DNA from: Pseudomonadota bacterium
Lineage (GTDB): Bacteria; Desulfobacterota; Desulfobulbia; Desulfobulbales; Desulfocapsaceae
Direction of reading: 5' to 3'
DNA: 64,000 bases
Assembly: GCA_018821985.1 (NCBI GenBank)
Contig: JAHJKP010000032.1
Location: 62,001-126,000, forward strand
The translations under genes and the position numbers were made by a program. This document shows positions 1 through 18,039 of this stretch, one piece after another. Within the stretch, counting starts at the first letter, position 1. Every line of letters starts with the position of its first letter. The notes beneath the pieces are model-generated. The model had not been told where the DNA came from, searched no databases, and was given only the letters and a program-made list of their open reading frames with translations.

Positions 1-1
1 G

Positions 2-2695
2 GCCACAGCGCCCGTTGTGGTGATTGGCGTCAGTTCCGATCTGCTCGCGCTGCCTGATATCCGCCAGCTTGCTGAAAACGAGCTGCGCCATGAGTTGCTC
101 AAGACGCCGGGCGTGGCCAATGTTGACATCTTCGGCAGCTATAAAAAAGAGGTGCAGATCATTATTGATAAGGCCAAATTGGATCAATATGGTCTGGGGC
201 TGGCAGCGGTACTGGCGACCTTGCAGAGTAATAATAAAGACTATGCCATTGGTTTCATCTCCAATGAAAAAAGCCGTTACCTCCTGAAGTCATCCGGCAA
301 AGAGGAGACGGTGCAGGGCCTGCGGGCTCTGCACCTGACCCCGGATGTGCGGCTGGCTGATGTGAGTGACATCTACTTCGGTCATTATGAAAACAGTTCG
401 GGCTATTACGGAAATGGCCGGGAATCCATCGCCATCTCGGTGCAGCGCGGGCTCGATGCCGATGTGCTGGGCACCATTACCCGGGTTGAGGAAAAATTAA
501 AGACATTCAAGAGCGCCTATCCACAGCTCCGCTTTGAGATAACAGACACCCAGAAGGACACCATCGTCCAGAGTACGGACAATATGTTCGAGTCCCTGCG
601 GGACGCCATCATCATGTCCACCATCGTGGTCTTCTTTTTTCTGGCCAGCTTCCGCCAGGTGCTGGTGGTCCTGGCCACTATTCCGGTGGTCTATGCCGCC
701 ACCATTGCCTTGATGTGGCTGGTGGGGATCGAATTCAATGTGGTGACCCTTACCGGTATTATCCTCGCCCTGGGCCTGCTGCTTGACGATACGGTGGTGG
801 TCATGGAAAATATTGAGCGCCATTATAAGGAGGGAGGGGAGGACATCAGAAAGTCGGTGATCTCCGGGACCAGGGAGATCATGTTTGCCGATCTCTCCGG
901 AACCCTCACCACCATGATTGCCCTGGCCCCCATCCTTTTTGTCGGCGGCTATCCCCAGACCGTATTCCGGCCCCTGGTGGGCACATTGCTCCTGGCACTC
1001 ATGGCCTCCTATGTTATTTCGATTACGGCCGTACCTTTGCTGTCGATGAAAATACTGACCATGGAGCCGCCCTGGCTGATGCGCATGGAGGATTTTTTCC
1101 AGCGCCTGACCGGCTTTGTCATGAATTATATCAACTCCTTTTTTAGTGGTGCCGTCAACCTGGCCCTGCAAAGGAAGGTTGTGGCACTGGCCTATTTTCT
1201 CGGTCTGGCCCTGCTCTTTGTCGTCAGTCTCCGGGGGGTGATGCCCACGGTGGGACAGGAGCTGATGCCCGCCATGGATACCGGCGGCGTCAAGGTCAAC
1301 ATTGTCACGGACCCTAATCTGCCCATCGAGGCCAGCCAGCGCATTGTTCTTGAGGCGAACACCCTGCTCGCTGACAATGGCCCCCTGCTGCGGCTCTCTT
1401 CAGCCATCGGCAGTGAGCCGGGGGTGCTGAGTATCGGCAGCGGCAGCGGCACGGATCGGATTGCCATTACCGCTACCTATGTAAATCGCTATGAGCGGGA
1501 TGAGTCCATCTGGGAGATCGAAAAACGGCTGCGCCCGCTCCTGGCCAGGATCGACCATGTCAAGCGGCTGGAGGTGGTGGATTTCGGGGCAACGGCCCTG
1601 GCAAGTATCCGGGCCAGTGTTGATGTGACGCTCTCCAGTGCCAGCTTTGACGATCTGGAAAAAGCTGGCGACCTGGTGGAAAAAGCCCTCTATAAAACCA
1701 GAGGGATCGTCTCGGTGGGGAGGAGCTGGGACAAGGATAAAAGCGTCTATAACCTTGAGATCGATCCGGCCAGGGCGGCCCTGTACGACCTTAAAAGCGG
1801 GGAGATTGCCAGGCAGCTGCAGACTGTTTTACGAGGAGCGCAGGTGGCCTCCTTTCCCCTGCAGAACGGTGTCGATTTCGGGGTCCGGGTCTGGCTTCCT
1901 GCCGGTCAACGGGATACCAGGGATATCCTGCAATCCACCTTGCTGGATACCCCGCAGGGCAAAATACCACTGGCCGCCATCGCCTCACTCAAGCGGGAGT
2001 TCGAGCCGGGGATCATCACCAGGGAAGGCTTGAACTACACCCTCAATGTCTATGGCTCCAGAGAGAAGGCCGCCATTTCCCATATCATGGCTGATTTCGG
2101 GCAGGCCTTTCAAGGGTCGAAACTGCCCCCGTCAGTGACCATGGAGCAGACCGGGGATATTCAACAATTTAAAAACTCAGCCGGGCGGATGGCTGCTGCC
2201 GCAGGCTTTGCGGTGATCTTCATCTTTATTACCCTGATTGCCCTCTTTAACAGTGTCAGGGTGGCTATCATGATCGTCCTTTCAATCCCGCTGACCATAA
2301 TCGGTGCTTCCTGGACGAACCTCCTCCTCGGCTATCATGTCTCCATGCCGGCAATGATGGGTTTTATCCTGCTCTCCGGCATCATCGTCAATAATGCCAT
2401 TCTCCTCATTCATTTTGCCCAGGAAAAGATGGCGGAAGGGATGTCCAAAAAAGAGGCCATGCTCGAATCGATCCAGATCCGTACCCGGCCGGTACTGATG
2501 ACGGCCTTTGCCGTGGCCGCCGGCATGCTGCCGGTCGCCCTCGGTTCGGCCATTGGCCTCGAGCGCCTCGCTCCCCTTGGCGCCGTGGCCATCGGGGGCC
2601 TCATTGTCGGCACTGTTTTGACCCTGCTCTTTATTCCTCTTATCTTCATCATGGTGGCAAAGGAGGGCGGAGAGGGCAGGGTGTTGGCTGAATGA
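2..2695 (+). CDS. RND-family efflux transporter, inner-membrane pump (5' truncated)
   Basis: This is the C-terminal ~897 residues of an AcrB/MexF/CzcA-type proton-driven efflux pump that works with a periplasmic adaptor and an outer-membrane channel. The reading frame is open to the first base, so the GTG at 17 is internal. RND pumps are usually about 1030-1050 residues, so roughly 140 are missing to the left. Two membrane blocks are visible: one around residues 195-350, with a polar run near LLLDDTVVVMEN typical of the TM4 proton-relay region, and one near the C terminus with SGIIVNNAILLIHFA. Large periplasmic porter loops lie between them. The protein ends in a short polar tail after a final hydrophobic helix. 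Adaptor and channel genes would be expected upstream, outside the window. The substrate cannot be deduced; the DD pair in TM4 is general for RND proteins. Confidence 0.93.
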   Translation, partial: ATAPVVVIGVSSDLLALPDIRQLAENELRHELLKTPGVANVDIFGSYKKEVQIIIDKAKLDQYGLGLAAVLATLQSNNKDYAIGFISNEKSRYLLKSSGKEETVQGLRALHLTPDVRLADVSDIYFGHYENSSGYYGNGRESIAISVQRGLDADVLGTITRVEEKLKTFKSAYPQLRFEITDTQKDTIVQSTDNMFESLRDAIIMSTIVVFFFLASFRQVLVVLATIPVVYAATIALMWLVGIEFNVVTLTGIILALGLLLDDTVVVMENIERHYKEGGEDIRKSVISGTREIMFADLSGTLTTMIALAPILFVGGYPQTVFRPLVGTLLLALMASYVISITAVPLLSMKILTMEPPWLMRMEDFFQRLTGFVMNYINSFFSGAVNLALQRKVVALAYFLGLALLFVVSLRGVMPTVGQELMPAMDTGGVKVNIVTDPNLPIEASQRIVLEANTLLADNGPLLRLSSAIGSEPGVLSIGSGSGTDRIAITATYVNRYERDESIWEIEKRLRPLLARIDHVKRLEVVDFGATALASIRASVDVTLSSASFDDLEKAGDLVEKALYKTRGIVSVGRSWDKDKSVYNLEIDPARAALYDLKSGEIARQLQTVLRGAQVASFPLQNGVDFGVRVWLPAGQRDTRDILQSTLLDTPQGKIPLAAIASLKREFEPGIITREGLNYTLNVYGSREKAAISHIMADFGQAFQGSKLPPSVTMEQTGDIQQFKNSAGRMAAAAGFAVIFIFITLIALFNSVRVAIMIVLSIPLTIIGASWTNLLLGYHVSMPAMMGFILLSGIIVNNAILLIHFAQEKMAEGMSKKEAMLESIQIRTRPVLMTAFAVAAGMLPVALGSAIGLERLAPLGAVAIGGLIVGTVLTLLFIPLIFIMVAKEGGEGRVLAE

Positions 2696-2767
2696 GCTGT
2701 GAAGGCTCAGCAAAAATAGTGTCTTGCAGGCAAGCGGCTCCGGATCAGGAAGCGAAGGAAATCGACA

Positions 2768-2792
2768 GTCCCGGCCATACAAGCGCCGGGAC
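2768..2792. terminator. GC-rich hairpin between convergent genes
   Basis: An 8-bp perfect stem (GTCCCGGC / GCCGGGAC) with a 9-nt loop sits between the convergent RND and IscA-like genes. It could end transcription from either side. No strong U-tract follows on either strand, so it is a weak terminator call. Confidence 0.4.
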
Positions 2793-2806
2793 CAAGTTGG
2801 CTGTGC

Positions 2807-3163
2807 TCAGATCTTGCACTTGCCTTCGGCGACTTTGGGGAAACCGCTCAGGTTGAAGCTCTGGCCGCAACCGCAGGTGGTTTTGGTGTTGGAATTGGTG
2901 AACTGCAGGCCGCCGTTGATCAGCTCGTCGGAGTAGTCGATGACCAGACCGTCCAGAAATTTGGCACTTGCTCCATCGCTAATAATAGTGATCGTCCCGG
3001 CCGTATGGATCACACTCTCGCCTTCCTTCATCTCGCTTACGAATGCAGCGTCGTAGGTCAGACCGGCACAGCCTCCTTCTTTTACGGCAACCCGCAGGAA
3101 CTGGCCCGGTGCCATCTTGCTGTTCAGCATCGCTGCTGCTTTTTCTTTAATGGTGATATTCAT
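2807..3163 (-). CDS. IscA/ErpA/HesB-family iron-sulfur cluster carrier
   Basis: This 118-residue A-type carrier is expected to bind an Fe-S cluster and pass it to apo-proteins in the cytoplasm. The three family cysteines are present: Cys32 in GGCAGLTY, and Cys97 and Cys99 in TTCGCGQSF. Length and the order of beta-strands are typical. The start is supported by GGGAGG five bases upstream of the ATG, and a good sigma70-like promoter lies further upstream. It is monocistronic here and not next to iscS or iscU. Two radical SAM enzymes and other Fe-S proteins are encoded nearby, but a direct link is inference. IscA, ErpA and HesB/SufA cannot be told apart from the sequence alone, so no symbol is given. 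Confidence 0.9.
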   Translation of the reverse strand: MNITIKEKAAAMLNSKMAPGQFLRVAVKEGGCAGLTYDAAFVSEMKEGESVIHTAGTITIISDGASAKFLDGLVIDYSDELINGGLQFTNSNTKTTCGCGQSFNLSGFPKVAEGKCKI

Positions 3164-3190
3164 GAAGACCTCCCTTGTTGATTTTTACTA

Positions 3191-3219
3191 AATATAGTCA
3201 GTAATGTCCGGTCAGGCAA
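3191..3219 (-). promoter_or_regulatory. Predicted sigma70 promoter of the IscA-like gene
   Basis: On the minus strand, TTGCCT (3214-3219) and TATATT (3191-3196) are separated by exactly 17 bases. The -10 box lies about 28 bases upstream of the ATG. The -10 box overlaps the imperfect palindrome TTACTGACTATATTTAGTAA, which could be a regulator site. No specific regulator is claimed. Confidence 0.5.
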
Positions 3220-3320
3220 GGGCAGGTGGCGGGTGGCGTCCGGTTCCACGAGTGACACCGGGCCATGCATGGCCTGGGTAAGGAAGGAGTTATAAAGAAC
3301 AGATCCCTTGGTGACGAGTC

Positions 3321-4622
3321 CTAGGCGTAACGGTACCGGAGATCCTGTTGCAGCATGGGCTCGAGGGTGGCGTCAAACAAGGCGCGCTGGCAGTCCACCT
3401 GCTTCATGTGGCCGTTACGCTGGAAGGCCATGGCGCGGCAACCGCCGAAGCAGAGGGGCAGGTAGATACAGTCGCGGCATTGCGGTTCGTCCTGCCAGTG
3501 ATCAAGGCACCAGGTCTCCTGCCAATCCTGACTTAACCCCTGCCGGATATCGCCGCAGGCAAGGTCCGGGTGGCCGATCAGGGTGACACACTTGTAGATG
3601 GTGCCGTCGTGGTCGACGGTGAAGGCATCGTCGAGGTCCACCATGCAGGGGCTGGGGGAGAGTTTGGGGAAGCTGTAGCCCCGTTGCAGGATCTCCTGGC
3701 GCAGGACAAGCGAGGTCGAATGCACCCAGGGCTCGTCGTTGGAGCAGCAGCCGCCGGTGAATTCGGGGTTGGCAAACTGGTCGTTGACCTGCATCACCGG
3801 ATAGAACTGGACGCTGCCGAAATCCTCAGCGGTAAAGCCCCTGTCGGCCAGGGAGTCAAGGAGATCTGGAAAAACCGGGTAATTGTCGGCGGTGTAGTTG
3901 CCGCTGAGGGTGATGACGCAGAGGCCCCGACAGGCCAGGAGGTTGTCGACGATGACTGACCAGCTTCCCTTCCCGTCCTTGAATGGCCGGAAACGGTCGT
4001 GATTGGCTGCCGTGCCGTCGATGGTGACCTTGACGCTGACCAGGCCGAGTGCAACCAACTCCTCAACCAGCACTGGGGCCAGCAGTGAACCGTTGGTGAC
4101 CAGGGTGAAGTCGAATCTGCCGCCCAGGGCCTCAATGGCGGGCTTGATCCGTTCGGCCAGATAGCGGATGCGCTGGCTATAGAGCAGCGGCTCGCCGCCG
4201 TAAAAGTCGAGGATGAGGCGTTTCTTGTTACCAGCGACAAACCGGGCCAGCAGAGAGGCCACCAGTTGATCGGCAGTGGCATCATTCATGGCGACCGCCC
4301 CCTTGAGGCTGCCCTCGTAGCAATAGACACAGGCGAAGTTGCAGGCCATGCCCAGGATCACCGAGACCCGCAGATTGGGGTTCAGGCGATTGATCTCCTG
4401 GCGGTAACCGCCCATCTCCCTCTGCTCATCGGCCGGGTCATCCACCACCATGGAGAGTTTGGCCAGGGAGGCGGTCAACTCGGGGCTGGCGCTGTTGTCC
4501 TGCAGGGCGGCCAGGGCCTCGGCGCCGACTATGGCCAGGGAGCAGGTCCGGGTAGAGAAGAGCAGCCGTCTGTCCGGCTGGCCGGGCAGGGGAAAAATCT
4601 TCAGGTAAGGGGAAAGGGGCAT
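3321..4622 (-). CDS. Radical SAM/SPASM peptide maturase (geopeptide-type)
   Basis: This 433-residue protein has the layout of RiPP-modifying radical SAM enzymes. An N-terminal ~85 residues may be a peptide-recognition region. The AdoMet [4Fe-4S] motif follows, CNFACVYC at Cys94, Cys98 and Cys101, then the glycine-rich FYGGEPLL. The C-terminal SPASM-type cysteine array includes GGCC, SPSPC, IYKC, DLACG and the closing CRDC, LCFGGC and DCQ, and should hold auxiliary Fe-S clusters. It lies 54 bases downstream of a 42-residue Cys-containing peptide gene, which is its probable substrate. The overall look, with an N-terminal region followed by NPNLRVSVILGMACNF, recalls the maturases paired with 'geopeptides' in Geobacter. 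That identification is from memory of the family and needs an HMM test. The chemistry performed is unknown. Confidence 0.88.
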   Translation of the reverse strand: MPLSPYLKIFPLPGQPDRRLLFSTRTCSLAIVGAEALAALQDNSASPELTASLAKLSMVVDDPADEQREMGGYRQEINRLNPNLRVSVILGMACNFACVYCYEGSLKGAVAMNDATADQLVASLLARFVAGNKKRLILDFYGGEPLLYSQRIRYLAERIKPAIEALGGRFDFTLVTNGSLLAPVLVEELVALGLVSVKVTIDGTAANHDRFRPFKDGKGSWSVIVDNLLACRGLCVITLSGNYTADNYPVFPDLLDSLADRGFTAEDFGSVQFYPVMQVNDQFANPEFTGGCCSNDEPWVHSTSLVLRQEILQRGYSFPKLSPSPCMVDLDDAFTVDHDGTIYKCVTLIGHPDLACGDIRQGLSQDWQETWCLDHWQDEPQCRDCIYLPLCFGGCRAMAFQRNGHMKQVDCQRALFDATLEPMLQQDLRYRYA

Positions 4623-4639
4623 GGCAGGGCTCAGGTAAG

Positions 4640-4667
4640 GGCCCTGGGGAGGATGATCCCCAGGGCC
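4640..4667 (-). terminator. Strong hairpin between peptide gene and maturase (attenuator or processing site)
   Basis: A perfect 11-bp stem (GGCCCTGGGGA / TCCCCAGGGCC) with a 6-nt loop lies just after the peptide stop codon and 17 bases before the maturase start. No U-run follows in the minus-strand direction, so full termination is unlikely. RiPP operons often have such an element so that the peptide message is more abundant than the enzyme message. That role is inferred here. Confidence 0.6.
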
Positions 4668-4676
4668 GTGTTTTTA

Positions 4677-4805
4677 TTAACGGTCCACAGAGGCAGACGA
4701 GGCCACGCTTGGCTTACCTTGACAACATGCAGCCTCGGCAGCCACCTCTGCAAGGTCCTTGCCGCAATCCAGAACAATCACCATTTCATTTTTTTCCACA
4801 TCCAT
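4677..4805 (-). CDS. Candidate RiPP precursor peptide, 42 residues
   Basis: This short gene encodes 42 residues, starting MDVEKNEMVIVLDCGKDL and ending ACCQGKPSVASSASVDR, followed by tandem TAA stops. It has the best ribosome-binding site in the window: AGGAGG eight bases before the ATG. The acidic N-terminal half would be the leader. The C-terminal half has an Ala/Glu-rich stretch, a Cys27-Cys28 pair and a Ser-rich tail and would be the core. A further Cys14 lies in the leader part. It sits between a TonB-dependent receptor and a radical SAM/SPASM enzyme on the same strand, with hairpins on both sides. These positional features are typical of RiPP precursors. No signal peptide is seen. Functional identity is inferred from context. 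A chance ORF is unlikely given the RBS, but no homologue could be searched. Confidence 0.8.
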   Translation of the reverse strand: MDVEKNEMVIVLDCGKDLAEVAAEAACCQGKPSVASSASVDR

Positions 4806-4813
4806 TATATATA

Positions 4814-4819
4814 CCTCCT
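4814..4819 (-). promoter_or_regulatory. Shine-Dalgarno site of the peptide gene
   Basis: AGGAGG followed by the 8-base spacer TATATATA and ATG. This is a full anti-16S match at ideal spacing. It is the main evidence that the 42-codon frame is translated and fixes its start. Confidence 0.8.
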
Positions 4820-4834
4820 GGGGTTGGGGTTGAT

Positions 4835-4857
4835 CTAGGGGCCACCATGGCCCCTAG
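4835..4857 (-). terminator. Hairpin between TonB-receptor gene and peptide gene
   Basis: A perfect 10-bp stem (CTAGGGGCCA / TGGCCCCTAG) with a 3-nt loop, 30 bases after the receptor stop and 15 bases before the peptide gene's Shine-Dalgarno site. There is no U-tract, so it may be a stabilising or processing structure that uncouples peptide from receptor expression rather than a terminator. Confidence 0.5.
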
Positions 4858-4887
4858 GAAAAGTCTGCATATTCACTGGTTCCTGGT

Positions 4888-6840
4888 TCAGAAGCTCATC
4901 CGCATGCCGGCCAGCAGCCAGCGGCCCGGCATGGGATAAAATGATGCATCACTAGTGGCGTTGCCATCAAGGAGGTTGTACACCTTGGCGTAGAGCTCAC
5001 AGGAAAGCCAGTCGGTGGAGTAGACGGTCCGGCCCAGGCTAATATTCCAGATCAGATCCGCCGCTTGCCCCCCCGTAGTCCCAATATTTTCCTGGTCCCA
5101 CCAGATGTAGTGGCCGGCCAACTCCCCTTTCCAGCCGACCGTGTCGCGGTAGCGCAGCATCAGGTTGGCGGCGGTGGAAGAAGAGGAAGCCTCCTGGATA
5201 GCTTCCGGGGTTACCAGGGTCCAGGTCCCATTGGCGGCCAGACTCAGGTCGTGCCAGGGACTGGTTTCCAGCCCCGCCTCGAACCCTTTGCGTTCACTGG
5301 ATCCGCCGTTCTTCCAGTTCCAATCCACGTCACTGTCATACCACCAAGTTTCTGTGACGTGGTGGAGGAAGGTGTCGACCTTGACGGACATGAAAGAGAG
5401 GCTGCGGTTCTCCATTCCCAGCTGGATTGAGGAGACCTCTTCCGGTTTGAGTTCCGAATTGGGATTGTCCCAGACACCACCGCCGGCGATGAAGGAGAGG
5501 ATGGGGTACTGGAAGCCGCGGGCGGCGGTGGCCCGCAGCAGGGTATCGGGCCGCAACAGGTAGGTTGCGCCCAGGGAGGGGCTGACCATGGAACCGCTGA
5601 TGCTGTGCTGGTCGTAGCGGATGCCGGGTGTCAGGGTGAGCTTACCCAGGCGCAGGGTGTCGTTGACAAAGACGCCCCATACCTCCTCAAAACCTGGACG
5701 GGACTCATCCTGGCTCGGAGCCCACCAGTTGCTCTGGGCCCAGGAACCGTAGTCGGTGACGGTGTCCATCTTGCTGCGGTTGATCTCGGCCCCGAGGGCC
5801 ACCTGCTGCCAGGAGTCGTGCCAGGTGAGCAGGCCGTTGGCCCCCTGACTCCGCTCGTGCCAGTTGGCATTCCAGAACAGGGAGCCGGGATCGCCCTCCG
5901 GGCTGGAGGCGAGGATGTCGCGGTTGTCGAGGAAGTTGCGTTCATAGTCACGGGCGCCGATATTGAGATGAAGCGACTCAGTCAGCACGGTATCGTAGTT
6001 GGCGGTGATAAAATAGCTGCGATCGCGGATATCCTCGCTGAAATAGGGGGCGGCATAGTCGAAATCGCCGGTCTTGTAGTGGGGATCGACCGCCATGCCG
6101 GAGAAGGTGAGCAGCCCCTGGTGCGGCAGGTCGACGGTGAGCTTGCCGTAGGCCCGGCCCGCGTCGTAAAAGCGGTTGTTCAGCAGGCCGTCGGACTCCT
6201 GTTGACCGGCGTAGAGGTAGTAGCCGACCCGGTCCACCTTGCCGGCAACATCCGCCTCGTAGGCCCCGACGCCGCGCTCACCCAATTCGCCGCCCACCGA
6301 ACCGCTCGGCCTGCTGCCAGTTCCCGGGGTCTTGGTGATGATGTTGATCACCCCGCCCTGGGAGGAGCCCCAGACCGCCGAACCCGGTCCCTTGACGATT
6401 TCGATCCGCTTGATGATGCGCAGGGGGATGTGGGAGAGATCGACAGCCCCGGACATGGCCGAGTTGAGACGGACGCCGTCGATGAGCACCAGCACATGCT
6501 CCTCCCGGCTGCCCTGAATATGGACCCACGAAGCCCCATTAAAATCGGGAGGAACCATGGCCAACGCCACCCCGGCCACCCGGTTCAGCACCTCGACAAG
6601 GCTCTGGGCGTGGATGGCCGTGATCTCCTCGTCGCTGATGATGGTGACGTTCTCGGCCACCTGGGTGAGAGGCTTGGCGGCGCGGGTGGCCACCTCCACC
6701 ATCTGGGAGTCGTCGAAGTACATGGCCAAGGGGTCGGCATCAGCAGCCTGGGCAGGCTGGGCGACAGGGAGGCAGCAAAGCAGGGCGGCGGTCAGGGGGG
6801 CCAGGTTACGAGGGTAACAGGGATGTTTGGCAGGGGACAT
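4888..6840 (-). CDS. TonB-dependent outer-membrane receptor
   Basis: This 650-residue outer-membrane active transporter is powered by TonB-ExbBD. A signal peptide covers residues 1-32, with cleavage likely after AQPAQA. A plug domain follows (about 45-165) with the family signature ENVTIISDEEI, VHIQGSREEHVLVLIDG and KGPGSAVWGSSQGGVINI. The rest is a 22-strand-type beta-barrel ending in GMRMSF, with the terminal Phe typical of outer-membrane proteins. I chose the ATG at 6840, preceded by AAGGAA, because an in-frame start 27 codons upstream would put a basic extension before the signal peptide. It appears to be the first gene of the operon with the peptide and its maturase. A natural guess is that it imports the matured peptide or a metal complex of it, but a cobalamin- or siderophore-type role is equally possible from sequence alone. 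Confidence 0.92.
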   Translation of the reverse strand: MSPAKHPCYPRNLAPLTAALLCCLPVAQPAQAADADPLAMYFDDSQMVEVATRAAKPLTQVAENVTIISDEEITAIHAQSLVEVLNRVAGVALAMVPPDFNGASWVHIQGSREEHVLVLIDGVRLNSAMSGAVDLSHIPLRIIKRIEIVKGPGSAVWGSSQGGVINIITKTPGTGSRPSGSVGGELGERGVGAYEADVAGKVDRVGYYLYAGQQESDGLLNNRFYDAGRAYGKLTVDLPHQGLLTFSGMAVDPHYKTGDFDYAAPYFSEDIRDRSYFITANYDTVLTESLHLNIGARDYERNFLDNRDILASSPEGDPGSLFWNANWHERSQGANGLLTWHDSWQQVALGAEINRSKMDTVTDYGSWAQSNWWAPSQDESRPGFEEVWGVFVNDTLRLGKLTLTPGIRYDQHSISGSMVSPSLGATYLLRPDTLLRATAARGFQYPILSFIAGGGVWDNPNSELKPEEVSSIQLGMENRSLSFMSVKVDTFLHHVTETWWYDSDVDWNWKNGGSSERKGFEAGLETSPWHDLSLAANGTWTLVTPEAIQEASSSSTAANLMLRYRDTVGWKGELAGHYIWWDQENIGTTGGQAADLIWNISLGRTVYSTDWLSCELYAKVYNLLDGNATSDASFYPMPGRWLLAGMRMSF

Positions 6841-6992
6841 AGGTCTTAAGTTCCTTTTCTTGGGGTGAATGAAAGGCCAGTAGCTCATGCGGAGGCTGTT
6901 TGGCGGAATTCGCTTGCGCAAAGGTGCAGTTTACTATTAGATAATAAAAAAGGCTGACAAATCGCCAACCTCCTCGACTCTCCGAACTTTTG

Positions 6993-7952
6993 ATGAGACA
7001 CGGACATCACACAACCGCCCGCATACTCTTCCTCCTGGTGCTGCTGGCCCTGCTGCCGGCTACAACGGCCTGGGGACAGGATTGCCTCCTGCTCCAGTCT
7101 TCGGCGTTGAAGCCCTACGAAGAGGCCCGCCGCGGTTTTGAACAGGCGTGGACGGGTGAGCAGCCCATCTCTGGGCCAAAAAGCATCACCATCGGTACCC
7201 TAACACTGGTCCTGCTCTCGGAGCAACCCGAGGAAACCATGAGTGCGCTAAAAAAACAACTCAAAAATGCGCAACTGGTGGTGGTAATCGGCGATCCGGC
7301 CCTCGATTTCGTCCGTGATCTGGAGCAGACTCCGGTTCTCTATCTCCTGGCCCCCTCGGCCGGTGAGCTCCCCGCCAACTTCACCGGCATTGACCTGCGC
7401 ATCCTCCCTTCCCAGCAACTGGAGGCGATGAGCCGACTCATGCCCAAGGTTCGCAGTATCGGTGCGCTCTACAATCCGGTCCGGAGCGGCAAGTGGGTCC
7501 AGGAGGCGCTCATGAGTCAGGTGAGCGCGGTGGAGACCCTGCTCTTCAAGAAGGTTGCTGCCCCATCTCTTGTGCCCGAGGCCCTGAAGAGCCTTGGAGA
7601 TAACATCATCGATGCCTACTGGCTGCTGCCGGACGAGCTGGTGACCAACCCACAGACCTTGGAGCACCTGCGAGAGTTCTCCATAGCCAATCGGGTGCCG
7701 ATTGTCAGTTTTTCAGACAAGTACCTCAAGGCCGGGGCCGCGGCGGCCATCACCTTCGACATGATTGACATGGGCAGCCAGGCAGGGGAGATGGCGGCCC
7801 GTATCCTCGCCGGTACCCAGCCAGGCAAAATCCCGGTGGAGCCGCCGCGCCGGCAGCGGGTGATCGTCAACACCAGTGTCTTTCGCAAGATGGGGGTGGT
7901 GATCAACGAGGCTGCGGTGGACGAAGTCTATTCTGGAGGAATGGAACAATGA
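6993..7952 (+). CDS. ABC-type substrate-binding protein (ABC_sub_bind/DUF534 type), likely periplasmic sensor
   Basis: This 319-residue protein has a signal peptide (residues 1-28, ending TAWGQ). The two-lobed periplasmic-binding fold resembles the uncharacterised ABC_sub_bind family (Pfam PF04392): LVVVIGDPALDFVRDL, PSAGELPANFTGIDL, IGALYNPVRSG and the terminal VINTSVFRKMGVVI. No ABC permease or ATPase follows. Instead the stop codon overlaps the start of a membrane histidine kinase (ATGA), and a response regulator is coupled the same way. This suggests the protein presents a ligand to the kinase rather than feeding a transporter; that role is inferred. The ATG at 6993 is preferred over the adjacent TTG. 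No clear Shine-Dalgarno site is visible. It is transcribed divergently from the TonB-receptor/peptide operon, from a 152-base intergenic region that should hold promoters for both. Confidence 0.85.
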   Translation: MRHGHHTTARILFLLVLLALLPATTAWGQDCLLLQSSALKPYEEARRGFEQAWTGEQPISGPKSITIGTLTLVLLSEQPEETMSALKKQLKNAQLVVVIGDPALDFVRDLEQTPVLYLLAPSAGELPANFTGIDLRILPSQQLEAMSRLMPKVRSIGALYNPVRSGKWVQEALMSQVSAVETLLFKKVAAPSLVPEALKSLGDNIIDAYWLLPDELVTNPQTLEHLREFSIANRVPIVSFSDKYLKAGAAAAITFDMIDMGSQAGEMAARILAGTQPGKIPVEPPRRQRVIVNTSVFRKMGVVINEAAVDEVYSGGMEQ

Positions 7953-9631
7953 AGTTTTTTCCTCGGCCTGTTTTGTGCAGAATGGGCTTTAACCTCAAAA
8001 TCCTATTGACCCTGTCTCTGATTCTGCTCGGTTTTGCCGTGGCTTCCGGGATGGCCTTCAATATGATCCAGCGCAAAGAGCTTAAGAACCATCTTGACCA
8101 CCAGGGGGAACTGATGGTCACCATGCTCTCCGGCTCCCTGCAGTCGGGGCTCTATTTCGAGGATCGTGCCAGCATTGACCAGGCGGTGAAGACCTTAGTC
8201 TCCCTGAATCTTCATCAGGATCTGGAGGCGGTTACGGTTTACGATGTTCATGACGGGGTGCTTTTGCGCCAGTTCCTCGCCAAAGCTGAGATCCCTGCAG
8301 GATTTCCGAGTATGGCCGGCCCTATGGCCACTGCCCTTAGCTCCTTCCACCAGGATACTGATCAGGGGAAGGTCTGGGAGGGTGACAATTTGATCATCTT
8401 CACGGCACCGGTTTCGGTGGCGGCCAAGCAGCAGAGCAACGAAAGCCTGTTCTTCGACACCAAGGACAATGTAAAGGCTCGTACCGTGATCGGCTACGCC
8501 CAGTTGGTTATGAGCAAGTCTCAATTCAACAAGACAGTAAGCAAGACAGTACTCCGAACGACGGTGCTGACTATCCTCTTCCTGCTCATCTCTCTGGCCG
8601 CCACCTATATGCTGACCCGGGAGACCATGGCACCGCTCAGGCGACTGATCGACACCATCCGCGAGCGGGCTGGTCAGAAAGAGGTGGGGGCGGACGAGGT
8701 GGGAATTTTGGGCGATACCTTTTCCCAGCTGGTAGATGACCTCGAACAGTCTTTCTCGACCATCCAGACCCTCAAGGAAGGTCTGGAGGAGACGGTGACG
8801 GAACGCACCGGGGAGTTGAGCCAGGCTCTGACCGAACTCAGAGAGACCCACATGCAGCTGGTTCAGTCGGAAAAAATGGTGGCCATCGGCCGGCTGGTGG
8901 CAGGCGTTGCCCACGAGATCAACAACACCACCAATTTCATCAGCGGGGCGCTGCCGCCGCTGCGCAAAAGGCTCAGCGAGATGGAAGGACTCCTCCATGT
9001 GCCGGCAGGAGAACGACCGGATCTTGAGCGGTGCCAGGCCATTTTTATGAATCTGACCCTGCTCCTGAACAATATCAGCGAGGGGGCGCGGCGGACCAAC
9101 AAGATCGTCGGCGACCTCAAAAACTTTTCGCGACCGGTCGATGAATTGCCGGGGCTGGTTGACATTAACCACTGCCTGCGCACCACCATCTCGCTGGCCT
9201 ATCCGGAGTACAAGCATCGCCTTGAATTGAACCTGGAGCTGGCCGAAGAGCTGCCTCTGGTTGAGGGTGTCCAGGGACAGCTCAATCAGGTGTTCATGAA
9301 CCTGCTGCTCAATGCGGTGCAGGCGCTCCCCATACAGGGAACCATCCTGATCCGCAGCTGGCTGGATGGGGAACAGGTGCACATCCTCTTTCATGACAAT
9401 GGTCCCGGTATCCCAGCCGGGGTGATCGACCAGATTTTCGAGCCCTTCTTTACCACCAAGGAGATGGGCAAGGGCACGGGGCTGGGACTTTCCATATCCT
9501 ACGGCATCATCAGGAAACATCAGGGGACGATTCTGGTCCGGAGCGAAGCGGGCGAGGGCGCCGAGTTTGAGATCATCTTGCCGCTCAGGCGGCAGAAAAC
9601 CATAGAAATCATCACTGAGGAGAGGCAATGA
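7949..9631 (+). CDS. Membrane histidine kinase of the binding-protein operon
   Basis: This 560-residue sensor kinase has TM1 at about residues 12-34, a periplasmic sensing region of about 165 residues, TM2 near 200-222 ([16 protein letters not shown]), a HAMP-like linker and a coiled coil. The HisKA domain follows with His322 in GVAHEINNT, then an HATPase_c domain with N-box NLLLNAV, G1 DNGPGIP, F-box FEPFFTTKE and G2 KGTGLGL. The kinase should autophosphorylate and pass phosphate to the next gene's regulator. It overlaps both neighbours by ATGA, which argues for a fixed 1:1:1 stoichiometry. The family 'HEINN-P' is replaced by 'HEINN-T'. The input could be direct, or through contact with the periplasmic binding protein encoded just upstream. 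Confidence 0.93.
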
Positions 9632-10359
9632 ATAGGGATCTGAGCAAGGTGCTCTATGTGGACGATGAAGAGATCAACCTGATCAACTTCCGAGAATCGC
9701 TCTGCGATAAGTTTGAGATCTTTACCGCCCTGTCCGGCGAAGAGGCGTTGGGGGTACTGGAGAAGGAAAAGGATATAGCCCTGGTGGTCAGCGATCAGCG
9801 GATGCCGGGGATGAAGGGTGTCGACCTGCTGGCCAGGGCCCGGGAAATGGCGCCCCATGCCGAGCGGATCATCATCACCGGCTACACCGATCCCCAGGAT
9901 ATCATCGCCGCCATCAATGAAGGCCATGTCTACCGCTACATCCTCAAACCCTGGACCGAGGAAGATCTGCAGGTCACGATCACCCATGCGGTGGAACGAC
10001 ATCATCTCAAGCAACATAATCGGGAGCTGCTGGAGGAGCTGAGCCGGAAAAATCTGGAGCTGGAGGACCGGGTCAGGGACCGCACTGCCCAACTGGCTAT
10101 GACCAACGAGACCTTGGCAGCCAAGGTGGAGGAGCTGGAGCGGACCAAATACGAACTGAAGACCCTGCAAGGCTTTCTTGCCATCTGCTCCTACTGTAAG
10201 AAAATAAGGGACACCGATGATGCCTGGATTCCCATAGAGGAATACCTGCACCGCCATGCCGACATCCTGCTCACCCATGGTATCTGTCACGATTGCCATG
10301 CGCAGGTGATGAAGGATCTGCCGGCCCAGGTAGAACAATTCCTGGGCAAATTGAAGTGA
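9628..10359 (+). CDS. Response regulator with coiled coil and C-terminal CxxC/CxxC domain
   Basis: This 243-residue regulator has an N-terminal receiver domain (about 5-125) with acidic pocket VDDEE and phospho-acceptor Asp56 in SDQRMPG. A coiled coil (about 130-180, rich in Leu/Glu/Arg) follows, then a small C-terminal module with Cys187-x2-Cys190 and Cys220-x2-Cys223. That module has the pattern ICSYCKKIRD...W...EEYL...HGICHDC, found at the end of many environmental PAS/receiver proteins, and it looks like a zinc- or metal-binding knuckle. There is no DNA-binding domain, so output is probably by protein contact. It is the last gene of the coupled trio. No good terminator hairpin follows, only a T-run at 10379. 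Confidence 0.9.
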   Translation: MNRDLSKVLYVDDEEINLINFRESLCDKFEIFTALSGEEALGVLEKEKDIALVVSDQRMPGMKGVDLLARAREMAPHAERIIITGYTDPQDIIAAINEGHVYRYILKPWTEEDLQVTITHAVERHHLKQHNRELLEELSRKNLELEDRVRDRTAQLAMTNETLAAKVEELERTKYELKTLQGFLAICSYCKKIRDTDDAWIPIEEYLHRHADILLTHGICHDCHAQVMKDLPAQVEQFLGKLK

Positions 10360-10497
10360 TCCAGGTGCAAGAACCGTTTTTTTTGGTAAGAGGTGTGCTC
10401 CAAAGCCACAGAAGGGGATAGGCCACTCGGCATTTTCCTAATAATACTTCACTGAATTATATATAGTATTTATGATGGCTGCGCTGACTGCCGGCTG

Positions 10498-12603
10498 TTA
10501 GTTCTTCCTGGCCGGGGTCTTGGCAGGACGCTCCACTTTTTCAACTTTTTTCTGCCGTTCGGCGGAGGGCAGGCGCAGGTCAATGGGTACCCCCTGGGTG
10601 GAGAGGATGAGCAGGCGCGGCTCGTCATCGATCCGGACCGGCTGCGGCAGGATATGCAGTTGCAACAGGGCCTGAATCTGCCGGGCAGAGAGTGCTACCC
10701 CTCTGCATTCAGGTTCCAGGACAAAGGGACAGCCATCTTTCCAGCCGGAGCAGCCGTAGGCCCTTTTCCCCTTGATAACCTCTTTGCCGCAGAGCGGACA
10801 ACTGCCCCAGCGCGCACCGTCTAATCGTCCGCTGGAGCTGTGCTCGATCAGGCTGCGAATGTAGCCGCTGATTCCGGCCATGAAGGTGTCGGGGTCAAGT
10901 TGGCTGCGCTCGATCTGTTTGAGCTTTTCCTCCCACTCACCTGTCATCTCCGGCGATTTGAGCAGGGGGTCCTGAATGAGGGCAATGAGGCAGCGCCCCA
11001 TATCGGTGCAGAGCAGCTGTTTTTTCTCGCGCCGGATATAGTTGCGGAGCAGCAGGGTCTCGATGATGGCCGCACGGGTGGCGGGCGTGCCGATGCCTCG
11101 TTCTTTGAGCGCCTCGCGCAGGGTATCGTCTTCGACAAATTTTCCGGCTGCCTCCATGGCACCGAGCAGCGAGTTTTCGGTGAAGTGACCGGGAGGTTTG
11201 GTCTTGCCCTCACGCAGGGAAGGCTCATGCGGGCCGGTTTCGCCTTTGACAAAGGCAGGCAGGGACTGGTCGTCGGCAGCGTCCTGGCTCATCTTCTTTT
11301 TCGGGAAGAGAATAGTCCAGCCGGGCTCGACGATCTGGGTCCCTTTGGCCTGAAATTTCACCTGGCTGGAGACACCGTTGACCGTGGTCACATTTTTGAT
11401 ACAGACCGGATAGAAGGCGGCGATAAACTGGGTGGTAATGGCCTCATAGACGAGCTGTTCATGAGCACTCATGGTGCGCGGCCTGACGCCGGTGGGGATG
11501 ATGGCGTGATGGTCGGTCACTTTCTTGTCATCGATGATCCGGGTGGTGAAGGGCAGCTTGGCGAGGTCGAGCGGCGCGATCTGTTCGGCCCGGATGGCCC
11601 TGAGCTGATCGAGTATCTTGGGAATGCGCGGCTTGAGGTCCTGGCTGAGGTAGCGTGAATCGGTTCGCGGATAGGTAACGAGTTTGGCCTCGTAGAGATT
11701 CTGGGTGGCGGTGAGGGTATCAGCTGCCGAGAGGCCGTGCGTCTTGTTGACCTCGCGCTGCAGGGTGGTGAGATCGAAGAGCTGCGGCGGCTGTTCCTTG
11801 TTCTCTTTGGCGCTGATGGTGGTGATGGCAAAGGGCTGGCCGCTTATTTTGTCGAGCAGGGCCTGCGCCTTTTCCGGTTGTTCGAAGCGCTCGCCGGTGT
11901 ACTTGAACACCACCTCGCGATAGCGGGTGGTGAGCTCCCAGAACGGCTGGGGGCGGAACTGGAGGATGGTGTCGTCACGTTCGACGATCATCGCCAGAAC
12001 CGGCGTCTGCACCCGGCCGATACTCCAGAGAACGCGATCGCCTCCGCCGCCGATCTGACCGTGGCGGACGGTGTAGTAGCGGGTGGCGTTGAGGCCGACA
12101 ATCCAGTCCGACTCACTGCGGCAGCGTGCGGCGGCATAGAGCGCATCGTAGTCGTGGCCGTCCTTGAGATCCTTGAATGCCGTTTGAATGGCGTCGGGGG
12201 TCAGCGAGTTGAGCCAGAGGCGGCGGATCGGCTTGTCCTCGCACTTGCACAGGGCCAGGATGTAGCGGAAGATCAGCTCTCCTTCCCGGCCGGCATCAGT
12301 TGCGCAGACAATTTCCTCGGCCTGTTCACACAAGGTCTTGATAATCTGGAACTGCTCCTCGATACCGTTGTTTTTGATCAGGGTGAGCTTGAATTCGTCC
12401 GGCACGAAGGGCAGGGTATCAAGCGACCAGCGCTTGAGCGCCGGATCGTATGCGCCCGGTTCCTGCAGGGTCACCAGATGGCCGAAGGCCCAGGTGACTG
12501 CGCAACCACGCCCCTCGATATACCCTTTCTTTTTGGTCGTGATATTGAGAACTTCTGCAATATCACGGGCCACGGAGGGCTTTTCGGCAATAACAACTTT
12601 CAT
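10498..12603 (-). CDS. topB: DNA topoisomerase III
   Basis: This 701-residue type IA topoisomerase relaxes negative supercoils and decatenates by single-strand passage. The Toprim domain starts at once (MKVVIAEKPSVARDIA) and carries the acidic metal site TDAGREGE at 102-109. The active-site tyrosine is Tyr311 in VTYPRTDSRYLS. Other conserved blocks are GRVQTPVLAMI and GIGTPATRAAIIETL. The C terminus has a zinc-ribbon-like segment, CPLC...GCSGWKDGCPF. Length fits bacterial TopB rather than the longer TopA. It is monocistronic. A short sequence just upstream of its start is repeated 1.1 kb away, on the other side of the radical SAM gene. Confidence 0.95.
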   Translation of the reverse strand: MKVVIAEKPSVARDIAEVLNITTKKKGYIEGRGCAVTWAFGHLVTLQEPGAYDPALKRWSLDTLPFVPDEFKLTLIKNNGIEEQFQIIKTLCEQAEEIVCATDAGREGELIFRYILALCKCEDKPIRRLWLNSLTPDAIQTAFKDLKDGHDYDALYAAARCRSESDWIVGLNATRYYTVRHGQIGGGGDRVLWSIGRVQTPVLAMIVERDDTILQFRPQPFWELTTRYREVVFKYTGERFEQPEKAQALLDKISGQPFAITTISAKENKEQPPQLFDLTTLQREVNKTHGLSAADTLTATQNLYEAKLVTYPRTDSRYLSQDLKPRIPKILDQLRAIRAEQIAPLDLAKLPFTTRIIDDKKVTDHHAIIPTGVRPRTMSAHEQLVYEAITTQFIAAFYPVCIKNVTTVNGVSSQVKFQAKGTQIVEPGWTILFPKKKMSQDAADDQSLPAFVKGETGPHEPSLREGKTKPPGHFTENSLLGAMEAAGKFVEDDTLREALKERGIGTPATRAAIIETLLLRNYIRREKKQLLCTDMGRCLIALIQDPLLKSPEMTGEWEEKLKQIERSQLDPDTFMAGISGYIRSLIEHSSSGRLDGARWGSCPLCGKEVIKGKRAYGCSGWKDGCPFVLEPECRGVALSARQIQALLQLHILPQPVRIDDEPRLLILSTQGVPIDLRLPSAERQKKVEKVERPAKTPARKN

Positions 12604-12610
12604 CGTAAAA

Positions 12611-12633
12611 TTTCTCGCGATCTTTGTTTCCTT
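12611..12633 (+). repeat. Short direct repeat, copy 1
   Basis: TTTCTCGCGATCTTTGTTTCC plus two bases; 21 of 23 bases match the copy at 13714-13736. The two copies bracket the radical SAM gene at 12754-13665. Confidence 0.6.
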
Positions 12634-12753
12634 CGATTATGAAGGGCACATCATAGACACATCATAATAACTGATCAATCCTCAACAAGAGTCTACAAAT
12701 AACAATAAATACAGGTCATAGGTAGCAAAAGTCTGCTGCAGGCGAACACGATT

Positions 12754-13665
12754 ATGAGAAAAATAGCTTTTGGATACTCAACACGGTGCAATGTCAGATG
12801 TGAACACTGTGTCGCGGCAGACGCCGTCCCCGAAAATTTAAAGATGGAGCTGCCTCGGGCCAGAGAGATCATTGCCGAGATGGCCGCAGCTCAGATCCAG
12901 GGCATAAGTTTCACTGCCGGCGAACCGCTGATCTACCTGGATGAAATTACCGAACTGGTCAAGCTCTGTCATCAGAAATATGGAATCTACACCCGGGTCG
13001 TCAGCAACTGCTTCTGGGCCAAGACCCCGGCGCTTGCTGACAGTTATATTGTCCAGCTCAAGGAAAACGGGCTGTCACAACTGCGTATGAGTTTCAGCCG
13101 CTGGCACCAGAAGAATATAGCCCGGAAGAATATTGTGAACGCCGCTCACAGTTGCCAGAAAAACGGGCTGGATTATTTCATCTCATTTGTAACCGATTTT
13201 TCAGAACAGGATGATGCCTGCGAAGACTATCTGCGGGAGCATGGTCTCAGATTTTTCGCGGAACCGGTAATCATTGCCGGCCGGGCAGGATCATTTGAGC
13301 GCCAGCCCATTCACACCGATTACCAGGCAAACTGCTGTCCGATGAACCCTTATCTTGCTCCCAGTCTGGACATGTATGCCTGCTGCGATGCCGGCAGCCA
13401 TTTTACCAACACCAATTTTTTCCACCTTGGGAATTTAGAGGACAGTACCGTTGAGCAGCTTCTCCAAAAAAGTGAAACGAATAGTTTGTATAATCACATT
13501 CGGACCATGGGTATAACAGCTATAGCATCTTTTGCCGGTTATAATGCAAGAGAAATCATACAGTACAGAAAATGTGAACTGTGCGAAAAATTGTTCAACT
13601 CCCCTGACATGCTGGCAATGTTGCAGCGGGAGGTTAATTCAGGGCTGAATTCCTGGTACAGGTAG
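12754..13665 (+). CDS. Radical SAM protein with C-terminal auxiliary-cluster cysteines
   Basis: This 303-residue enzyme carries the AdoMet-cluster motif CNVRCEHC at Cys12, Cys16 and Cys19, close to the N terminus, and a glycine-rich FTAGEPLI. The C-terminal third has a SPASM/twitch-like array: NCCPMNP, YACCDAG and KCELCEKLF. This points to one extra Fe-S cluster and to modification of a peptide or protein, but no precursor-like frame with a good RBS was found within 300 bases on either side. The N-terminal 'MRKIAFGYSTRCNVRCEHCV' suggests a compact barrel. It stands alone between topB and a DUF6178-like gene, and a short direct repeat flanks it, so it may have arrived as a cassette. The substrate is unknown. 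The start has only a weak RBS, though no upstream in-frame alternative looks better. Confidence 0.85.
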   Translation: MRKIAFGYSTRCNVRCEHCVAADAVPENLKMELPRAREIIAEMAAAQIQGISFTAGEPLIYLDEITELVKLCHQKYGIYTRVVSNCFWAKTPALADSYIVQLKENGLSQLRMSFSRWHQKNIARKNIVNAAHSCQKNGLDYFISFVTDFSEQDDACEDYLREHGLRFFAEPVIIAGRAGSFERQPIHTDYQANCCPMNPYLAPSLDMYACCDAGSHFTNTNFFHLGNLEDSTVEQLLQKSETNSLYNHIRTMGITAIASFAGYNAREIIQYRKCELCEKLFNSPDMLAMLQREVNSGLNSWYR

Positions 13666-13713
13666 GTGCGAAGCCGTTAAAACAGGTTGAATCACTCCGT
13701 TCCTTCGAACGAT

Positions 13714-13736
13714 TTTCTCGTGATCTTTATTTCCTT
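13714..13736 (+). repeat. Short direct repeat, copy 2
   Basis: TTTCTCGTGATCTTTATTTCC plus two bases; matches 12611-12633 at 21 of 23 positions. The copies lie upstream of divergently placed genes (topB and the DUF6178-like gene), so they might be a shared regulatory motif or the footprint of an insertion. Confidence 0.55.
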
Positions 13737-13793
13737 TTGTGCAAAAGAATACAGTATAATGACAGACGAAAGCCTTACTGTATATATACGGCG

Positions 13794-13898
13794 ATGCACC
13801 TCAACGTAACCGTCAAAACGCTGGACCTTTCCTGGATGGCCGTCCTCTGGCAGGACGAAACACCGTTACCAACGAAGATTCCCCGCAGCTTTCTGTGA
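13794..13898 (+). CDS. Possible small ORF, 34 residues (doubtful)
   Basis: An ATG-to-TGA frame, MHLNVTVKTLDLSWMAVLWQ and 14 more residues, lies just before the DUF6178-like gene. It has no Shine-Dalgarno match, and its composition looks protein-like but is not distinctive. It could be a leader peptide or chance. Confidence 0.2.
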   Translation: MHLNVTVKTLDLSWMAVLWQDETPLPTKIPRSFL

Positions 13899-13932
13899 GG
13901 AACTTTGATCACCTCCGACTGACAAGAGAAAC

Positions 13933-15270
13933 ATGACCGACAAGAATATTATAGAACTAACCCCGTTCCGCGCTGATCTGACTCGTGCCCTGACCCGCCG
14001 GGGAGAGCGAATCCTGGCCGCCAGCGATCTGGCCTCCGAGGTCGCAGCCCTGGAACCCCTTGAGGCCTACTATATCGTCAGGGAGATCGGCCTTGATCAG
14101 GCCCTGTCCATCCTCCTCGAGCTGAATCCGGAACAATTGGAGGCCTGTGTCGATCTGGACTGCTGGAACCGCTACGACTTTGCTCCCGACAGTCTTGATG
14201 AATGGCTGTCTGCTTTTGCGCTGGAGGACCCTGAGACCATGGCCAGGGCTTTTTCCTCCCTGGACTATGTAGTGCAGCTTCTCTTCCTGGCCCAGACCGT
14301 TACCGTCTATGATCCTGATACTGATCAGATTCCTCAACAAGAGGAGGGTAGCCAGCCCCGAGCCACGACCCCGGACGGCTTCTATCTTCTGGAGTTGAAA
14401 ACCGAACTGGCGCTGAAGACTGATCCCTTTACTGTCTTGGATGCCCTGTACCAATATGATCCTATAGCTGCCCACCGACTCCTGAGCGATGTCCGCGTGG
14501 ATCTGCCGACTCAGATTGAAGAAGAGGCTTTGCGTTTCCGTAACGGTCGCATGCAGGATATCGGCTTTGCGCCACCAGAGGAGGCTGCTGTTCTCTTTTC
14601 CCGGCCCGCCATTCGTCCGGCCTTGCCCAGGTCTCTGAAGCCGCTAGATAGTGCCCTTACCCGGATGCCGTCCGTCTATGCCGGCCCCTTGATTGAAACA
14701 ACCCTGTTGCAGCAGGCCCTGTCCCTGATTATTGACCGTGAGCGGTTGTTGAGCCTGGAGCAGGAAGTCGTCTGGGCCATCAACAGCGCGATCATCGCCT
14801 ATGGTGAAAAAACGCAGGATATCAAGCAGATAATTGATATTTCCGAGCGGGTACGGGACACCATTTCCTTAGGTCTTGAATCACTGCTGACAGAGCAAGA
14901 TCCTGACTTCCAGCTGGACGGTGCCGCCGCTGCGGCCAAGGCCTCCGACTTGCTCGATGTCTGGTGCCTGACCGATCTGTTTCGGCACGGTTTTGCCGCG
15001 ACCCTGGGGCTCCAGCAGGAAGCGCGGAAGGCCTTGCTTGATCCCCGATTTCGTGGCTGGTATGATCTGGCGGATACGCAACAGTCGGATGAGCCTGGCG
15101 ATCAGCTGGAGCGCGCCTTTGTGGCTGCACTGCTTGGCCGTCACCCCTTGCGCAGCGGTTTTGATCCGGCCAAACCCCTGGAGCTCAAGGCCTTTTCCTG
15201 CCTTGCCGATATTGCAGTAGCGCATCTCCGTCTGCAGCAACTTGTGGACCGGATTTGCAGCCAGTCATGA
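13933..15270 (+). CDS. Conserved hypothetical protein (DUF6178-like)
   Basis: This soluble, mostly alpha-helical protein of 445 residues has no signal peptide and no membrane segments. It is acidic and leucine-rich, with a charged segment near residues 130-150 (DTDQIPQQEEGSQ). I recognise the overall pattern, an opening 'LTPFRADLTRALTRRGERIL', 'LDCWNRYDFAPDSLDEWL' and 'DPRFRGWYDLADTQQ', as like the DUF6178 family known mainly from deltaproteobacteria. No enzyme motif is visible and no function is assigned. The start has a weak AAGAGA site upstream and no better alternative. It is followed by an unrelated kinase 221 bases later, so it is probably monocistronic. Confidence 0.75.
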   Translation: MTDKNIIELTPFRADLTRALTRRGERILAASDLASEVAALEPLEAYYIVREIGLDQALSILLELNPEQLEACVDLDCWNRYDFAPDSLDEWLSAFALEDPETMARAFSSLDYVVQLLFLAQTVTVYDPDTDQIPQQEEGSQPRATTPDGFYLLELKTELALKTDPFTVLDALYQYDPIAAHRLLSDVRVDLPTQIEEEALRFRNGRMQDIGFAPPEEAAVLFSRPAIRPALPRSLKPLDSALTRMPSVYAGPLIETTLLQQALSLIIDRERLLSLEQEVVWAINSAIIAYGEKTQDIKQIIDISERVRDTISLGLESLLTEQDPDFQLDGAAAAAKASDLLDVWCLTDLFRHGFAATLGLQQEARKALLDPRFRGWYDLADTQQSDEPGDQLERAFVAALLGRHPLRSGFDPAKPLELKAFSCLADIAVAHLRLQQLVDRICSQS

Positions 15271-15288
15271 TCTCCTGCAAGGATACAC

Positions 15289-15363
15289 ATGAACAATTCC
15301 GGGCGCATCAAGGAAAAACAGAGGATAGAGCTCTTTCATTCCCTGTTAAATGAGCTTATTTAA
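15289..15363 (+). CDS. Possible 24-residue peptide (leader or remnant)
   Basis: This frame starts MNNSGRIKEKQRIELFHSLL and has AAGGA five bases before its ATG. It lies in the 221-base gap before the heme-type hybrid kinase. The RBS is reasonable, but length and lack of context keep confidence low. It could equally be the decayed end of a former gene. Confidence 0.25.
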   Translation: MNNSGRIKEKQRIELFHSLLNELI

Positions 15364-15491
15364 AGGTTAGAAGCCGCTTGGATACCTGTTGGTTGTCAAG
15401 GCGGTATCTGCTTTGAACCACTGTTGGATAGCGGAAGAACAATGATGAGAGCAGCATTTTGTGGTCATTGCATGACATGAGGAGCTTTACT

Positions 15492-17849: not shown

Positions 17850-18039
17850 CTTTAAAGGGGAGCTCATTATAAAGAGCACAGGCTTATCCGGGATGAAGGT
17901 GGACAATCTCTGCGTGAAAATTGTCATTGGTGTAAAAGGATGCGGTGTTTTTTCAGCTCTTGTGCATGCGCCTGCTGCAGAGCACCCTCTTTGCCAACTT
18001 GGAAGCATTACCATTAGACGTGAATCTTGAATACAGACC

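Follow-up and report, generated by a model that had tools for sequence, protein, structure and literature searches.

Does a 42-codon open reading frame lying beside a radical SAM enzyme encode that enzyme's substrate and, if so, what would the finished peptide be for? The question is raised by a locus in a stretch of 64,000 nucleotides, the whole of which we refer to as the window, from a source genome of 3.3 Mb. A first-pass annotation had proposed that the frame at 4677-4805 specifies a cysteine-containing RiPP precursor modified by the product of 3321-4622. The features that enter the argument are the following.

3321-4622, minus strand: radical SAM/SPASM maturase (TIGR04280), 433 residues, with a predicted RRE-like N-terminal domain
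4640-4667, minus strand: 11-pair stem-loop between the precursor stop and the maturase start
4677-4805, minus strand: putative precursor peptide gene, 42 aa, with a leader-like VIVLDxG motif and conserved Cys27-Cys28
4814-4819, minus strand: ribosome-binding site AGGAGG, with an 8-base spacer to the ATG, as read from the sequence
4888-6840, minus strand: TonB-dependent receptor of the cassette subfamily; the frame is open to 6921 and its start is taken as the ATG at 6838-6840
6993-7952, plus strand: periplasmic substrate-binding protein (PF04392); the frame runs from TTG 6990, with an ATG at 6993
7949-9631, plus strand: membrane histidine kinase, with HATPase_c over its cut-off
9628-10359, plus strand: response regulator, a receiver domain followed by a C-terminal segment with Cys pairs

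Coding status of the short frame

On the minus strand, the frame opens with an ATG at 4803-4805, closes with a TAA at 4677-4679 that is followed by a second TAA at 4674-4676, and translates as MDVEKNEMVIVLDCGKDLAEVAAEAACCQGKPSVASSASVDR, 42 residues with cysteines at positions 14, 27 and 28; the bases between AGGAGG and the ATG are TATATATA (eight bases, 4806-4813, minus strand). The first-pass description is therefore an accurate reading of the sequence in its ribosome-binding site, 8-base spacer, start codon, tandem stops and 42 codons, in Cys14 and the Cys27-Cys28 pair, and in placing the frame between the TonB receptor ORF (4888-6921) and the SPASM enzyme (3321-4622), all on one strand.

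The peptide has zero matches in NCBIfam or Pfam, and the case for a gene comes from its relatives. A profile built from 19 of these, with the window row and its five closest excluded, placed the frame at the head of the window's 1898 (E 6.5e-12, against 0.083 for the runner-up). It was also at the top for a profile of 22 peptides, designated A4 and labelled by us 'Geobacter-type' after the presumed origin of the family name (E 3.5e-4; next 0.039), and the A3 profile, which has the window peptide among its rows, matched it at E 9.9e-18. Among six homologues, window included, differences at codon positions 1, 2 and 3 numbered 81, 80 and 203, with a pooled pN/pS of 0.24 calculated over the first 34 codons from pairs that are not independent and with two of the six sequences identical there; a second homologue group (n=4) yielded 44, 15 and 47 differences and a pN/pS of 0.32. 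The relatives' third-position bias, the pN/pS and the top profile rank together lead us to conclude that, by these comparisons, ORF 4677-4805 is a conserved coding gene. When the A3 profile was searched genome-wide against 93 family genomes, 12 contained matches. In 11 of these the peptide adjoins a receptor or a maturase, and the remaining match (G046, E 0.0079) is probably noise.

The cysteines that had been singled out fared differently. The Cys-Cys pair occurs in all 47 aligned peptides, although its conservation is partly a product of selection because the precursors were first gathered with a CC filter; the profile searches were unfiltered, but the profiles were built from filtered peptides. 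Cys14, in contrast, is a cysteine in 6 of 25 A3 rows and in 0 of 22 A4 rows, being limited to the window peptide and the five nearest to it, and it was rejected as a functional residue.

Pairing of the precursor with its maturase

The kind of enzyme encoded at 3321-4622 is already named, since NCBIfam TIGR04280, 'geopeptide radical SAM maturase', matches it at 490.1 bits, above a cut-off of 400, over residues 1-431 and model positions 1-428. The enzyme likewise exceeds the cut-off of SPASM TIGR04085 (53.6 bits versus 27) and remains below that of Pfam SPASM PF13186 (15.3 of 21.5 bits). An alignment of 15 sequences shows no variation at Cys 94, 98 and 101 of the radical SAM CX3CX2C motif at 94-101 or at seven SPASM cysteines (326, 345, 382, 385, 391, 395 and 411). 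For the AlphaFold2 model (mean pLDDT 86), the best solved match by fold, and also by sequence, is 5why (Z 27.4, model residues 4-429), which, like 5wgg, we take to be the SCIFF/ranthipeptide maturase CteB. As this alignment starts at residue 4, the N-terminal domain of the maturase lies inside the aligned range. RRE domains consist of three strands and helices; residues 7-80 of the whole-chain model form three strands and then helices, and this predicted RRE-like domain is a plausible docking site for the leader. The nearest named relative found, a Desulfobulbaceae metagenome assembly (L040), has a maturase 94% identical to that of the window. Weak TIGR04280 matches are found in 91 of the 93 family genomes and are taken for other radical SAM proteins.

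Three maturases elsewhere (L088:3628-5793, L090:5019-7100 and L091:9120-11300) are extended at the C-terminus by about 280 residues, among which are RYIDDFID-like and DYIRDFS-like motifs. A Pfam scan of the extension returned no family, and a convincing solved relative was not found; judged by eye, it might be an isoprenoid-synthase-like domain.

Among the fetched loci, 50 distinct maturases score at least 500 bits on our own maturase profile and are here termed strong. For 48 of them, the window included, a peptide lies within 2 kb, either strand being counted. The two exceptions (L098 and L099) are near contig ends with just 1.6 and 0.8 kb of upstream sequence, and their relative L096 has its peptide about 1.8 kb upstream; in L093 the peptide is on the opposite strand to the maturase. 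For 44 of the 50, the 400 nt upstream contain an ATG-initiated frame of 25-60 aa that has both a CC pair and a Shine-Dalgarno-like motif. Among the other ORFs of the fetched loci that reach 200 aa, 4 of 449 have such a frame, a background that excludes six ORF clusters (the maturase and five that are mostly antisense-looking). The search for close relatives that keep the maturase and lack the peptide thus favoured the pairing, both misses having short upstream sequence. With the TIGR04280 score, comparative genomics supports the proposal that the peptide is the substrate of the 3321-4622 maturase. That the frame is open by chance and the maturase acts on another substrate would be in keeping with its small size and its lack of NCBIfam and Pfam matches, and with nothing else that we found, and is already contradicted by the 48 of 50 pairings, the pN/pS and the first rank among 1898 frames, leaving it highly improbable.

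The geopeptide models, proposed earlier as a check on both partners, recognized the maturase but not the precursor, for which TIGR04229 gave no match at E <= 1 (curated cut-off 30 bits). When nine other peptides of the set were compared with this model, six matched at E <= 10, the best at 29.6 bits and all below the cut-off; two sister peptides scored 21.2 and 12.7 bits. The miss identifies the window peptide as a divergent branch of a known kind, and it also indicates that similar members escape the current precursor model. Overall, the genomic comparisons support ORF 4677-4805 as encoding a RiPP precursor of the geopeptide type that is coupled to its maturase.

The A-type Fe-S carrier just downstream of the maturase (TIGR00049, 2807-3163) was considered as a further partner and rejected, since on an ORF map of 62 regions L107 and L116 are the only ones in which its cluster, c54, adjoins the maturase. 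Two arrangements elsewhere are recorded here as observations: one genome (G190, locus L079) contains two tandem cassettes with different peptides, and L148 (G245:C22) has a receptor, a binding protein and a divergent peptide with CIC in place of CC and no maturase alongside.

The stem-loop between the two genes has a predicted stability of -25.8 kcal/mol (z -4.15), equalled by 0 of 200 shuffles. No T-run follows it on the minus strand, and in a scan of the plus strand it appears terminator-like. The equivalent intergenic regions of relatives reach z <= -2 in 33 of 43, in a set that relies on rule-based guesses for the maturase starts, omits six regions of under 15 nt and counts one contig twice (L046 and L152, neither of which reaches z -2). 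By our reading, the structure may set the output of more peptide than enzyme.

A conserved cassette and its distribution

Upstream of the precursor, the genes for the PF04392 protein, the kinase and the response regulator run divergently from the receptor gene. The best named model for the receptor is the B12 receptor, far below its cut-off (130 of 600 bits). The kinase has matches to sCache_4, CHASE8, HAMP and HisKA, each below its cut-off. A Pfam search of the response regulator at E <= 0.01 returned no DNA-binding domain; across loci, the response regulators as judged by eye are mixed, many being a receiver with or without a Cys-pair end and those of L091 and L094 having NarL-like ends. A riboswitch over the cassette was sought and rejected, as Rfam found no match in positions 1-20000 of the window and one match in eight relatives (L113), located immediately 5' of cobU and next to a maturase below the cut-off.

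Among the 38 strong maturases with at least 5 kb of upstream sequence, which form our well-sampled set, the peptide and a TonB-dependent receptor are present in all 38, a PF04392 protein in 36 and a kinase within 8 kb in 34, with all four components found together in 34. In 33 of the 38 the kinase gene comes immediately after that of the binding protein, an adjacency from which a physical interaction is predicted only. Of the five exceptions, L043 and L045 lack a recognized binding protein and kinase, L081 and L083 lack a recognized kinase, and in L089 the kinase is present but not behind the binding protein. These gene neighbourhoods show the precursor and maturase to be part of a conserved cassette that also comprises the receptor, binding protein and kinase. 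In L043 (718-2546), cobT and cobS stand beside the cassette receptor.

The association extends to whole genomes. A maturase over the TIGR04280 cut-off is present in 31 of 395 genomes of the phylum, and the receptor profile A2 at E <= 1e-100 is matched in all 31 and in 3 of the 364 others (34 genomes). Two of the three additional genomes, G188 and G255, carry sub-cut-off maturases; the third, G246, has no maturase among its listed matches at E <= 1e-60. Of the 31, 11 contributed no row to A2, and all 11 match. The Fisher p for this co-occurrence, 5e-43, is not to be taken literally, as the genomes are related, A2 was made from cassette receptors and only the best candidates were scored. More generally, because genomes are related, profiles were built from cassette members and the best three to five candidates per genome were scored in the phylum searches, the counts of co-occurrence are not independent of one another and not wholly exhaustive. 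The profile for the binding protein is the less selective of the two, matching 56 of the 395 genomes at E <= 1e-45, all 31 maturase genomes among them.

The 93 family genomes include 13 with cassette-type receptors and 15 with binding proteins of at least 195 bits. Maturase sequence is present in 14 of these 15, as nine enzymes over the cut-off, four fragments (G085, G008, G023 and G007) and one of 205 bits (G028); the fifteenth genome is G061. In G005 and G085, maturase sequence occurs with no receptor match at E <= 1e-100, and in both the maturase is near a contig end. Mirror trees of the 36 cassettes with all three proteins correlate the maturase with the receptor (r 0.65) and with the binding protein (r 0.59), values reached in 0 of 2000 permutations that shared ancestry alone can nevertheless yield. 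A weak test of swapped partners within genomes ranked the true pairing 1 of 16 for the binding protein and 4 of 16 for the receptor.

A few genomes retain the receiving part of the cassette in the absence of a complete maturase. In G061 the genes for the receptor, binding protein and kinase have no adjoining maturase fragment, and A3 matches no peptide anywhere in the genome, while G246 has the receiving part, no maturase listed at E <= 1e-60 and no peptide in the fetched stretch. G023 (two contigs, 100% complete) preserves only the last third of a maturase and has no A3 match. G007 has a peptide, a maturase-like start identified by eye and a short C-terminal remnant, from which its maturase seems to be internally deleted. 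The receptors are still constrained, with a pN/pS of 0.23 for G007 versus G023 and 0.27 for G008 and G019. This sequence-level pattern in G061, G246, G023 and G007 is suggestive and nothing more, as the losses may be recent.

We also examined nine loci with maturases below the cut-off, and four of these (L112, L115, L121 and L122, the last two from one genus) share a sister arrangement. Downstream of a distant maturase, and between it and an SBP_bac_5 protein that is followed by a kinase, is a peptide of 24-26 residues with an MKIIKKG-like start and a single core Cys; the Pfam scans covered three of the four binding proteins and one of the kinases. We found no existing name for this peptide family. 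The substitution of one binding-protein family for another at this position offers the best independent hint that the protein and its kinase are a functional unit. At a sub-cut-off locus, L113 (2961-9093), the maturase is accompanied by a CC peptide, an MFS transporter, cobalamin genes (cobU, cobT, cobS, FecCD and Peripla_BP_2) and a cobalamin riboswitch.

Possible function and comparison with known systems

That the precursor-maturase pair usually travels with its own receptor, binding protein and sensor kinase suggests that the peptide is released and its return then detected. We somewhat favour a reading in which a self-made peptide is modified, released, brought back through the receptor and sensed by the kinase. 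The steps that we infer, from leader docking and crosslinking through release and ligand identity to sensing, would run as follows. Docking of the N-terminal VIVLDxG strand at the maturase's RRE-like domain would be followed by a radical crosslink, probably a thioether, that the enzyme would make at the conserved Cys-Cys core. The trimmed product would exit the cell and could re-enter through its own TonB-dependent receptor, whereupon the PF04392 binding protein would capture it in the periplasm and the adjacent histidine kinase and response regulator would read it. Quorum sensing is listed as a function of SCIFF ranthipeptides, the products of the closest solved maturase type, in a review (PMC8326336). 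Against the sensing reading stands the response regulator, which here has no Pfam DNA-binding domain. The common cassette includes no exporter or protease, and none was seen adjoining it in the window. Near five strong maturases (L093, L098, L099, L100 and L119) there is a major-facilitator-like protein (cluster c6, identified by eye), a possible candidate exporter. More tentatively, the cassette may constitute a Gram-negative RiPP pheromone system with 'receiver-only' species, for which the sister peptides would have recruited a binding protein of another Pfam family to do the same job.

The main rival to sensing is use as a metallophore or cofactor carrier, in which the product would bind a metal or scarce nutrient, the receptor would take it up, and the binding protein and kinase would report supply; siderophore and methanobactin systems are the model, and the receptor alone fits both readings. 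The dedicated TonB-dependent receptor in all 38 well-sampled cassettes and the conserved vicinal Cys pair agree with this, as do genomes that have the receptor without a complete maturase and so resemble siderophore cheaters, the B12 receptor as best named model, the cobT and cobS genes by the receptor of L043, and the FecCD, Peripla_BP_2 and cobalamin riboswitch of L113. An inner-membrane importer, however, does not recur in the gene clusters common to the loci, which speaks for sensing (5 of the 62 regions have an ABC ATPase cluster, c7, at a distance of about 7 kb), and the binding protein is paired instead with a kinase. The cysteines, moreover, would not be free thiols if the enzyme crosslinks them. 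We therefore regard a metallophore or carrier as unlikely, if still worth serious attention.

Less probable again, in our judgement, is a bacteriocin-like or intracellular peptide whose receptor, binding protein and kinase serve release, immunity or feedback. TonB-dependent outer-membrane proteins near graspetide genes were predicted to act in export (PMC8939145), and a dedicated importer or exporter is not common to the loci overall. Nonetheless, genomes in which the maturase is broken or absent retain the receptor, binding protein and kinase, for which reception is the better fit, with immunity still possible.

If the favoured reading of release, return and sensing is true, the cassette would connect radical SAM peptide chemistry in Desulfobulbaceae and their relatives with two-component sensing as well as TonB-dependent uptake, and the receiver-only genomes would be natural examples that lack synthesis. 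NCBIfam already has families for the geopeptide precursor and maturase, reportedly founded in a paper by Haft and Basu in 2011, and what the cassette adds is a testable function through a candidate receptor, binding protein and kinase. Our literature search, with subscription papers mostly outside its scope, retrieved no paper with 'geopeptide' or 'TIGR04280', and the cassette is accordingly not claimable as unpublished.

The closest known counterpart is the geopeptide system itself (TIGR04229/TIGR04280), with which the locus shares a maturase over the cut-off, a short Cys-Cys peptide and a VLxxG strand before the core. It differs in that the window peptide is unmatched by TIGR04229 and in that the receptor, binding protein and kinase are outside both models. 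CteB (5why, 5wgg) is the best solved match by both sequence and fold over almost the whole chain, at about 20% identity; the SCIFF peptide core has six Cys, whereas two core Cys are conserved here, where the partners are of the TonB cell-envelope type. Methanobactin clusters similarly combine a Cys peptide with a TonB-dependent transporter and a periplasmic binding protein, and they use an SBP_bac_5 protein, as do the sister cassettes; they rely on the MbnB/MbnC pair, however, in contrast to the radical SAM maturase and kinase-tied binding protein found here. Finally, LuxP-LuxQ sensing resembles the present arrangement in that a binding protein gene adjoins a membrane histidine kinase gene, and here no ABC permease recurs. 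The cassette departs from it in employing another binding-protein family and in its proposed ligand, a peptide that would need an outer-membrane receptor.
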